Origin: Thermus sp. CCB_US3_UF1
Lineage (GTDB): Bacteria > Deinococcota > Deinococci > Deinococcales > Thermaceae
Direction of reading: 5' to 3'
Assembly (NCBI RefSeq): GCF_000236585.1
Contig: NC_017278.1
Span: forward strand, 744,001 to 808,000
Length of the DNA: 64,000 nt
Made by a program: the position numbers and the translations under genes. The stretch's first letter is position 1. Each line of letters starts with the position of its first letter. The notes beneath the pieces are model-generated. The model searched no databases and was not told the origin of the DNA. It was given only the letters and a program-made list of their open reading frames with translations. Positions 6,974-45,077 of the stretch are shown one piece after another.

Positions 6974-7010
6974 CTTGCCTCCTTCCGCCAAGGCGTCAGG
7001 GTTTGCCCTC

Positions 7011-38162: not shown

Positions 38163-38561
38163 CTACACGCCCCGGTAGATGCGCCTTTCCGCCTCGATGG
38201 CCTGGCTGAGCTCCTGGATTTCCTTTAGGAGCTCCAGGTCTGGCTTCTGCCCCAAGGCCTCCTTCAGCCGGGCCAGGCGCTCTTGGTAGTAGGCCTCCCG
38301 CAGCCGGGCCAGGGTCTTTTCCATCACCTCCGGCAGGCGGGGTTCCTCCACCGTGGGGGCCATTATCAGCCGCTCCAGGAAGATCCCCCCCGCCTCCTTG
38401 CGGCTGAGCACCTGGCGCAGGTAGTCCCGCCGGGGCTCCTTACGGGCCAGCTCCAGGAACTCCCCCAACAGGGAGCCCTCGGGGGGCCAGACGTGGTCGG
38501 AAACGTACCGAACCCATTCCAGGAAAGCCCCATCCCCCAGGGAGAGGAGCAGGGCCATCAC
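38163..38561 (-). CDS. DNA primase C-terminal part (shifted frame)
   Basis: The 132-residue frame (MMALLLSLGDGAFLEWV...IYRGV) is the helical C-terminal, helicase-interacting part of DnaG in a different frame from the rest. The frame is open further upstream, through LLLELDV, back to the G-run at 38608-38614. The ATG at 38561 has no ribosome site, which argues against an independent gene. Confidence 0.7.
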   Translation of the reverse strand: MMALLLSLGDGAFLEWVRYVSDHVWPPEGSLLGEFLELARKEPRRDYLRQVLSRKEAGGIFLERLIMAPTVEEPRLPEVMEKTLARLREAYYQERLARLKEALGQKPDLELLKEIQELSQAIEAERRIYRGV

Positions 38562-39892
38562 GTCCAGCTCCAGGAGGAGGGTGCGGTTTTTGGGCTCGGC
38601 CTTGGGCGGGGGGGTGGGGGCGGCTTGCCCCGCTTGCGGCTCATGAGGTACTCCTCCAGCTGCCTGGGGGCCAGGCCCAGCCGCTCCACCACCAGGGCCT
38701 TGAGCCGCTCGGCCACGGGGTCAAAGGGCTCAGGGGAGAGCATCCTGGGGGTGAGGCGTTCCAGGACCTTCCGCTTGTGTTCCGGGCGCGTGAGGTCCAG
38801 GTCCCGGGCGGCTTCCTGGAAGCGGAAGGCCACCTCGGGCAGGGCCTCTTCCAGGGCCTTTTGGAAGAGGGCGGGGCCTTGGGGGTGGAGGAGGAGTTCC
38901 CCAGGGTCCTTGGCGGGCAGGCGCACGGCGTAAAAGACGAACTGGCGGGCCAGCTCCAGCTCCAGGCTCTGCAGGGTGGCCTTCTGCCCGGCCTCGTCCG
39001 CGTCAAAGGCCAGGTAGACCTCCCGCACCTCCTGGGCCTTGAGGAGGCGGGCCTGCTCCTCGGAAAGCCCCGAGCCCAAGACGGCCACGGTCTCGGCAAA
39101 GCCCATCTGGTGCAGGGCGATGGCGTCGAACAGCCCCTCCACCACGATGGCCCGCCCCTCCCGGAGGCTGGCCTTGGCCTCGGGGTAGGCGAAGAGGACC
39201 TCGCGCTTGCGGAAGAGGGAGGTTTCGGGGGAGTTCAGGTACTTGGGGGTTTCCTCCCCCAGGGCCCGGCCGGTGAAGGCCACGATCCGCCCCAGGTGGT
39301 CCCGGATGGGGAAGGTGATGCGGTGGCGGAAGCGGTCAAAGAAGCGGCCTTCCCTCTCGGCCAGGACCCCGGCCTTCAGGCCCTCCTCCGGGCTCACCCC
39401 GTGGCGGGAGAGGTAGACGAGGAGCCCGTCCCCCTTGGGAGGGGCGTAGCCCAGGCCAAAGCGGGCCACGCTGGCCTCGCTGAGGCCCCGGGCCTGGAGG
39501 TAGGCCTGGGCTTCCGGGGAGGCCCTAAGCCCTTCCAAAAAGTAGGCCTGGGCCAGCTTGAGGACCTCCAGGAGCTCCCGGCGGTTCTGCGCAGGGCCCC
39601 TTTGCGGCAACTCCACCCCGGCCTCCTCCGCCAGGCGCTCCAGGGCTCCCGCGAAGTCCAGGCCCTCCATGCGCTCCATGAAGGCGAAGAGGTCCCCCCC
39701 GGCCTTGCAGCCAAAGCAGTGGAAGAGGCCCTTTTCCTCGTCCACATAGAAGGAGGGGGTTTTTTCCTGGTGAAAGGGGCAAAGCCCCTTCCACCGTCCC
39801 CGGCCCGCGGGCTTCAGGACCACGTAGCGGGAAACCACCTCCTTAAGGGGGAGGCGGCGCTTGATGGCCTCTACCGCCTGAGCCGTGTCCAT
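38558..39892 (-). CDS. dnaG: DNA primase DnaG, N-terminal and catalytic parts, ends in frameshift
   Basis: DnaG makes RNA primers for replication. This 444-residue frame contains the CHC2 zinc finger (CPFHQEKTPSFYV and LFHCFGCKAGGD), the RNA polymerase core and TOPRIM region (IVVEGLFDAIAL, VYLAFDADEAGQKAT). It then runs through a proline-rich stretch (KPPPPPRPRPSP) and stops at TGA 38558 after PSSWSWT. The shift occurs at seven consecutive C on the minus strand (38614-38608): one more C, or a -1 slip, joins it to the 38163-38561 frame. Sequencing error, real mutation and frameshifting are all possible. Confidence 0.88.
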   Translation of the reverse strand: MDTAQAVEAIKRRLPLKEVVSRYVVLKPAGRGRWKGLCPFHQEKTPSFYVDEEKGLFHCFGCKAGGDLFAFMERMEGLDFAGALERLAEEAGVELPQRGPAQNRRELLEVLKLAQAYFLEGLRASPEAQAYLQARGLSEASVARFGLGYAPPKGDGLLVYLSRHGVSPEEGLKAGVLAEREGRFFDRFRHRITFPIRDHLGRIVAFTGRALGEETPKYLNSPETSLFRKREVLFAYPEAKASLREGRAIVVEGLFDAIALHQMGFAETVAVLGSGLSEEQARLLKAQEVREVYLAFDADEAGQKATLQSLELELARQFVFYAVRLPAKDPGELLLHPQGPALFQKALEEALPEVAFRFQEAARDLDLTRPEHKRKVLERLTPRMLSPEPFDPVAERLKALVVERLGLAPRQLEEYLMSRKRGKPPPPPRPRPSPKTAPSSWSWT

Positions 39893-42878: not shown

Positions 42879-45077
42879 GTGCACCCTCCTGGGGGGCAGG
42901 GAGAGGGTGAGGCTGGCGGCCAGGAGAAGGGCCGCTTCCTTGTCCAGGTACTGGTTGCCGTTGCCGCACTTGGGGGAGAGGACGCACCGGGGGCAGCCCT
43001 CCGCGCAGGGGCAGCCCTTCAGGAGTTCTAGGGTGGCGGCCATCCACTCGGGAAAGCGCCGGGCGGCGGCCCGGGCGTAGCCCACGCCCCCGGGGTAGCC
43101 GTCGTAGACGAAGAGGGTGGGCCCACCCCCTGAGGGCAGGGGCTGGGGGTAGAAGGGGTAGGAGAGGCCGCCGATGTCCTGCCTTTCCGCCAGGACGAAG
43201 AGGGGGAGGAGGCCGATCATGGCGTGTTCCAGGGCGTGGATCCCCCCGGGGATCCGGTGGGGTGGGACGGTCTGCGGGGGGTGGAACCATAGGGCCTCGG
43301 TGGGAAAGGTGATCTCGGGAAGCTCCAGGGGTACTTCCTCCAGGACGCTTCCGGTGAAGAAGCGCTTCTTCACGTAGGCCACCACCCGCTCCCTCAGCAC
43401 CACCCGCCCCACCCAGACCCCGTGCCCCACGGGTTCCCCTTCCAGGACCTCCAGGTGGGTTTCCGCCCGGGGCTCGGTGTAGTAGTCCTCGAGGGCCGGC
43501 AGGAGCCAGACCTCCCGCCTTTTGGCGTCCACGTTGCGCACCAGGTAGCTCTCCCCCCCGTGCAGGTAGATCGCTCCCGGGTGGGCCTCCCAGTAGGCCT
43601 GGCGCTCGTCCAAGTACCCCAGGACCTCCCCTTCCGGCCCCCTCAGGGTGAAGGTGGCCCCCAGGCCCCTTAGGGAAACCTCCCGGTGGGGATGGCGTTT
43701 GGGCGTGTACCACCGCCCCTCCTTTGCCCGCAGCTCCGCCAGGGCCCCCGGGCAGAGGACCTCCTCCCGGGACAGGGGCATCTCCCAGGCGGCGGCGTGC
43801 AGGTGCAAGGGGCAAAGGACGGGGTTCGTTGGGTCGGCCACCGCTGCCTCCGGGGGGCTTCCCAGGAGGAGCTCGGGGCGGTGGAGGAAGTACTCGTCCA
43901 GGGGGTCTTCCCGGGGGATGAAGACCACCAGGGCGCGCCGCTCTCCCCGCCCCGCCCTGCCCGCCCGCTGCCAGAAAGCGGCCACCGAGCCCGGGTAGCC
44001 TACCAGGACCACGGCGTCCAGCTCCCCGATATCCACCCCCAGCTCCAGGGCGCTGGTGGAGACCAGGACCCGCACCTCCCCCCGCTTCAGGGCCTCCTCC
44101 AAGCGGCGCCTTTCCCGGGCGGTGTAGCCCGCACGGTAGGGGCGCACCGCGGGGTGGGCGGCGTAGCGGGCGATGAGCTCGGCGGACTTCCTTGCCCCCA
44201 CGAAGACCAGGCCCCGCAAGCCCCCCTCCGCCAGGGCCCGGGCCAGGTAGGCGGCCTCCAGGAGGGGACTCCGCCGCCTTTCCCCTTTCTTATCCAGGGC
44301 CTTGGGCAGGAGGACCAGAACCTCCCGCTCCGAGCGGGCCACCGTTTCCCTAAGCTCCACAAAGGGGAGGCCGGTGAGGGTTTCCGCGTGCTCCCGGGCG
44401 TTGCCGATGGTGGCGCTGGCCGCGATCACCTGGGGGTTGGCCCCGTAGTGGCGGGCCAGGCGCAGGAGGCGGAAGAGGACCAAGGCCACGTGGGTGCCAA
44501 AGACCCCGCGGTAGGCGTGGAGCTCGTCCAGGACCAGGTAGCGGAGCCGGGAGAGGAAGGGGGCCCAGTCCCCGTGCCGGGGCAGGAGGCCGAAGTGGAG
44601 CATGTCCGGGTTGGAGAGGAGGACCAGGCCCTCTTCCCGCGCCTTGCGCCGCAGTTCGCCAGAGGTATCCCCGTCGTAAGGGTATACCCCCTTGACCCCC
44701 AGGGTCTCGGCCATGGCCCTAAGCCGCCGCAGCTGGTCGTGGGCCAGGGCCTTGGTGGGGAAGAGGAGGAGGCTTGTGGCCCCCTCCAGGGCCGCCTTGA
44801 GCACCGGGGCCTGGAAGACCAGGCTCTTGCCCGCGGCGGTGGAGTAGGCCATGACCAGGTTCCGCCCCGCCTCCACCTGGAGGAGGGCCTCCTTCTGGTG
44901 GGTGAAGGGCTTCAGGCCCAGGGCCTGGAGCACCCCGGCGAAGGCCCCCCCGTAGGCCTCCCGCCTGGGGGGTCTGGGGGGAAGGGTGCGGGCGAAGACG
45001 ATCCGCCCCCGGAACTCGGGGTCTTCTTCCAGCCACTCCCGGTAGCTGGCAAACCCCTTCAGGGCCTCGGGCAGCAC
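42876..45077 (-). CDS. DEAD/DEAH helicase with DUF1998 domain (MrfA/Hrq1-like)
   Basis: The 733-residue SF2 helicase has the Q-type FTHQKEALLQVEAGRN start, Walker A YSTAAGKSLVFQAP near 95-108, DELHAYRGVFG (motif II), SATIGNAREHAE, and a C-terminal helicase half with STSALELGVDIGELDAVV and QRAGRAGRG. The C-terminal DUF1998 region carries the four-cysteine site CPCAEGCPRC with a later Cys. Relatives (YprA/MrfA, Hrq1) unwind DNA in mitomycin-damage repair. GTG 45077 is supported by CATAAT at 6 nt. Confidence 0.9.
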   Translation of the reverse strand: MLPEALKGFASYREWLEEDPEFRGRIVFARTLPPRPPRREAYGGAFAGVLQALGLKPFTHQKEALLQVEAGRNLVMAYSTAAGKSLVFQAPVLKAALEGATSLLLFPTKALAHDQLRRLRAMAETLGVKGVYPYDGDTSGELRRKAREEGLVLLSNPDMLHFGLLPRHGDWAPFLSRLRYLVLDELHAYRGVFGTHVALVLFRLLRLARHYGANPQVIAASATIGNAREHAETLTGLPFVELRETVARSEREVLVLLPKALDKKGERRRSPLLEAAYLARALAEGGLRGLVFVGARKSAELIARYAAHPAVRPYRAGYTARERRRLEEALKRGEVRVLVSTSALELGVDIGELDAVVLVGYPGSVAAFWQRAGRAGRGERRALVVFIPREDPLDEYFLHRPELLLGSPPEAAVADPTNPVLCPLHLHAAAWEMPLSREEVLCPGALAELRAKEGRWYTPKRHPHREVSLRGLGATFTLRGPEGEVLGYLDERQAYWEAHPGAIYLHGGESYLVRNVDAKRREVWLLPALEDYYTEPRAETHLEVLEGEPVGHGVWVGRVVLRERVVAYVKKRFFTGSVLEEVPLELPEITFPTEALWFHPPQTVPPHRIPGGIHALEHAMIGLLPLFVLAERQDIGGLSYPFYPQPLPSGGGPTLFVYDGYPGGVGYARAAARRFPEWMAATLELLKGCPCAEGCPRCVLSPKCGNGNQYLDKEAALLLAASLTLSLPPRRVH

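Follow-up and report, generated by a model that had tools for sequence, protein, structure and literature searches.

The question raised by this locus is why dnaG, the gene for DNA primase, is split in the deposited genome of Thermus sp. CCB_US3_UF1. The gene is essential, and the C-terminal domain of DnaG loads primase on the helicase. The gene lies in a window of 64,000 nucleotides (NC_017278.1, positions 744,001 to 808,000), which is the whole stretch of DNA analysed here and in which all dnaG coordinates are counted. Among the explanations considered, a residual homopolymer error in the assembly is the most likely, a recent real mutation comes second, and programmed slippage is unlikely.

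The two reading frames of dnaG

The first frame of dnaG (38558..39892, minus strand) comprises 444 codons from the ATG at 39892 and ends with a TGA at 38560-38558, so that the original prediction was correct in stating that the gene stops early at 38558. The product includes the zinc-binding part, the RNA polymerase (Toprim) part and the start of the proline linker, followed by about 16 out-of-frame residues. It matches the NCBIfam dnaG model TIGR01391 (3.8e-110, 368.6 bits against a cut-off of 283.6) as well as the Pfam families Zn_ribbon_DnaG, DNAG_N and Toprim, and is 76-88% identical to the corresponding part of the proteins of relatives; the zinc-binding and Toprim parts that characterise a catalytic DnaG are thus both present. 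The C-terminal domain, at the place of the helicase-binding domain, is not in the same open frame and is found out of frame at 38163..38607 on the minus strand. The continuation frame is open from before 38607 down to 38163, and within it an open reading frame at 38561-38163 encodes 132 aa from a GTG. Compared with the C-termini of three intact DnaG proteins from Thermus, the out-of-frame part shows 77-81% identity, in agreement with the claim that the domain continues in another frame. Its identification rests on orthology because the Pfam model DnaG_DnaB_bind scores below the cut-off here (E 0.022) and has no match in the C-terminal piece of the one intact relative scanned.

Upstream of dnaG lies an 864-aa open reading frame whose end overlaps the dnaG start by 22 bases (39871-39892). 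An Rfam search of the window yields no match, a promoter and terminator scan finds 0 promoter-like sites and 1 terminator-like site compared with 1.8 expected, the linker DNA has no match in viral_contigs, and no PLSDB record covers 80% of the plasmid contig of this genome. A literature search on Thermus dnaG and frameshifting returns no paper title that concerns a dnaG split, and the genome paper contains no mention of primase, dnaG, frameshift or homopolymer (PMC4599208).

Placement of the missing base

The C7 run proposed as the switch point lies within the proline-rich linker, at 38608..38614 on the minus strand; its first C (38614) is in codon position 1, and the run is the best single place for a missing base. 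When all one-base changes are scored against the DnaG proteins of four relatives, the insertion of one C into this run comes out best in each of the four comparisons, which upholds the claim that one added C restores the full protein; in each comparison, 9-12 positions are near-tied. Because of these near-ties, the missing base is likely, but not certain, to belong to the C7 run rather than to the neighbouring C5. At the matching place in G009 and G022 (L085 and L086), a CCA precedes eight in-frame C and a G, an arrangement that supports a putative change from C8 to C7. Runs of this kind are not rare, with 57 C or G runs of exactly seven in the window.

Beyond the break, the 138 C-terminal codons contain no stop, and GC3 is 0.90 in both parts of dnaG. 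The dN/dS values for these codons against nine relatives range from 0.14 to 0.36, compared with 0.13-0.30 between intact relatives (seven pairs); the maximum, obtained with L084, lies slightly above the intact-pair range. Judged by these codon statistics, purifying selection still acts on the C-terminal domain, with no apparent decay. It follows that the break either arose very recently, does not exist in the organism or is bypassed.

Possible bypass of the break: slippage and restart

A bypass might take the form of a programmed or rescuing slip on C7, in which an extra C is inserted by RNA polymerase or the ribosome shifts by -1, so that primase would be made with and without the helicase-binding domain. 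The location of the missing base in a flexible inter-domain linker and the conservation of the C-terminus are compatible with such a slip, as is the use of RNA-level slippage by Thermus dnaX, described in the accessible part of PMC1088944, given that the A9 site of dnaX is also found in the genome analysed here. All the same, we consider this explanation very improbable, on the grounds that follow.

The dnaG gene was compared across 26 other Thermus genomes, 25 of which contain a match, the exception being G020, an assembly that is 65% complete. In 24 of these 25 relatives, dnaG is open through the linker to 575-590 aa, and in none of the 25 is it split at the same place as here. The remaining gene, that of G024 (L107), has one missing base near residue 345, in a different place and outside any long run. 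The linker is proline-rich in every relative, and its longest C run, counted over a 38-codon stretch with the exclusion of L002 (which duplicates the sequence of L084), is 5 in two relatives, 6 in ten, 7 in eight and 8 in five. Moreover, eight of the 25 read CCA CCC CCC CAA, an A-CCC-CCC-C identical to that of the present genome in sequence and phase, without a change of frame. Thus, the comparison of the run in close relatives, suggested in the original prediction, reveals no conserved slip site.

The run and its context also lack the features of known shift sites. Within 290,210 homologue-covered bases of the genome, where runs were counted inside single alignments, 66 C7, 155 G7, 16 C8 and 29 G8 runs on the coding strand remain in frame, including 20 C7 runs in the same phase as that of dnaG; because the seven-base runs stay in frame, a C7 run by itself causes no shift. 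In dnaG the heptamer read in frame is A CCC CCC and not the tandem X XXY YYZ of -1 frameshift sites, nor does the downstream RNA fold better than expected by chance: for the 88 nt that follow, z = 0.42, with 135 of 200 shuffles folding equally well or better, in a test of folds without pseudoknots. In the portion of the literature at hand, the bacterial RNA polymerase slip sites described are A/T tracts, the E. coli enzyme requiring at least 7 T or at least 8 A (PMC6260861), and proline CCC sites are described for +1 shifts (PMC5009743), which is the wrong direction for dnaG. The proposal that a programmed slip gives two forms of primase therefore finds no support in the conservation of the site, the reading of the octamer in relatives, the predicted folding or the behavior of equal runs. 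If the site were nevertheless real and programmed, it would represent a new way of setting primase-helicase coupling. Slightly less credible still is a scenario in which the C7 run is real and full-length primase is made only via RNA-level slippage, or via a -1 shift while ribosomes stall on polyproline, which would set a ratio of helicase-blind to helicase-bound primase unique to this lineage.

The original prediction invoked dnaX as a precedent. In T. thermophilus, slippage at the RNA level yields the short form of the dnaX product from an intact frame, according to the available part of PMC1088944. Among the 26 dnaX loci examined, with the own genome included and the fragmented G020 loci excluded, the run is A9 in 24, including the own genome, and A10 in two. 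The precedent itself holds, in that Thermus dnaX has a slip site, and the two cases are alike in involving a replication gene, a homopolymer and two possible products, tau and gamma in the case of dnaX. The likeness does not extend to the base (A9 or A10 compared with C7), to conservation (a run kept in 26 of 26 loci compared with C5 to C8 among 25 relatives) or to direction, since the full-length dnaX form is made without slippage whereas full-length dnaG would here need it. On this comparison, a selected slip site in Thermus, that of dnaX, stays conserved and the dnaG run varies, which offers an easy criterion: genuine slip sites would be conserved genus-wide and errors would not. The two A10 genes (L204 and L205, from G011 and G012) have a genomic frame that leads to the short form, so that the long form would need slippage; this could be biology or an error in run length.

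The other conceivable bypass is a primase made of two proteins, with translation stopping at the TGA and restarting on the overlapping start codons to produce a separate C-terminal chain. The premature TGA (38558..38560, minus strand) indeed overlaps both candidate starts, a GTG (38561-38559) and an ATG (38558-38556), which together form GTGATG, and a GGAG is located 6 and 9 bases upstream of them. However, the GGAG and the start codons belong to the conserved coding sequence for LLLELDV, a GTG or ATG at this place is missing in 5 of the 27 loci examined, and the gene is split at this place in no relative, so that we regard restart as the least plausible of all the explanations. Programmed slippage and split translation are both disfavoured because the conservation that either would lead one to expect is absent.

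Residual sequencing error or recent deletion as possible causes

Homopolymers are miscounted in 454 pyrosequencing, and they are also hot spots of mutation. A break absent from the organism and a very recent one look alike in the sequence, and both have to be weighed. On the first of these, a homopolymer would have been under-called in the assembly from 454 reads and left uncorrected, so that dnaG was deposited without one C in its GC-rich proline linker; the organism itself most probably produces an ordinary primase some 577 residues long. According to the genome paper, the genome (2,243,772 + 19,716 bp) was assembled with Newbler from 21x 454 reads, and 115x Illumina GA IIx reads were mapped for gap filling and correction, with a two-platform consensus applied to putative errors (PMC4599208). 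The case resembles residual homopolymer indels of 454-based assemblies in that the C run is one base short, the gene is conserved and essential, the break is a singleton in the genus and the platform is one prone to this kind of error; it differs in the reported Illumina correction, which an error would have to have escaped. The pattern expected of a homopolymer error, a singleton break at a homopolymer with the frame kept in relatives, is the one seen here, and the authors of GeneTack, in the accessible part of their paper, would attribute frame breaks that are singletons and validated by BLAST to errors of sequencing and not to true indels (PMC3711429).

Several observations count against an error. 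A two-platform consensus was applied to putative errors, Illumina coverage of 115x would normally resolve a C7 run, the many C7 and G7 runs that remain in frame indicate that errors are not widespread in the assembly, and dnaG is the single clear frame break across the 62,514 homologue-covered bases of the window. Breaks were detected by homology, a procedure in which false rows include N-terminal extensions, overlaps and reciprocals of a relative's own break and were judged by eye from position and identity. The window rows at 6999, 42527, 43089, 45158 and 57848 were set aside, the row at 43089 being the reciprocal of a break in G008 itself. An ab initio codon-usage Viterbi frameshift scan was dropped since, among its 13 calls in the window, overlaps between genes were reported as shifts.

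The alternative is that one base was in fact lost recently, through replication slippage at the C run, in the culture that was sequenced. The cell would then make a primase of 444 residues that lacks the C-terminal domain, or survive via leaky frameshifting or a mixed population. The mutability of homopolymers, the wholeness of the catalytic part, the different one-base break in the G024 gene and the Illumina correction that had been applied are in keeping with a deletion; the essential nature of dnaG, the loading of primase on the helicase by its C-terminal domain, the lack of any sign of decay in the C-terminus and the further G-run breaks in the same assembly, which suggest a technical cause, make it a distinctly less likely explanation. 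Because the gene is essential and intact elsewhere in the genus, and given the platform and the other breaks at G/C runs, we infer that the missing C reflects an error rather than a true deletion. Residual homopolymer error thus probably explains the dnaG break, and the sequencing error named in the original prediction as the simplest alternative is favoured by the intact relatives, the 454 platform and the other G/C-run breaks.

Other breaks at G and C runs

In the sampled part of the genome, two further breaks are found, both at G9 runs. One interrupts an sbcD-like exonuclease gene (L120:18095-18103, plus strand; G000 C2, near 878,095), as judged against one relative, and is mended by removing one G. 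The other, judged against two relatives, interrupts a large open reading frame (L120:6622-6637, plus strand; G000 C2, near 866,622), for which a weak GspN-like match is detected in a relative.

Similar breaks occur in the assemblies of the relatives. Of 38 candidate rows, some of which are start or overlap artefacts (2 of the 13 that follow are near N-termini), 13 are best mended by an added base in a C or G run of at least 5, and none by a removal. Such breaks at G/C homopolymers in finished Thermus genomes are not to be taken as biology without the reads. Those mendable by one more base in a G or C run include breaks in L140, L141, L149, L168, L169, L171, L190 and L234, all from Thermus relatives; the gene broken at L190:9350 is 95-100% identical to its G000 counterpart.
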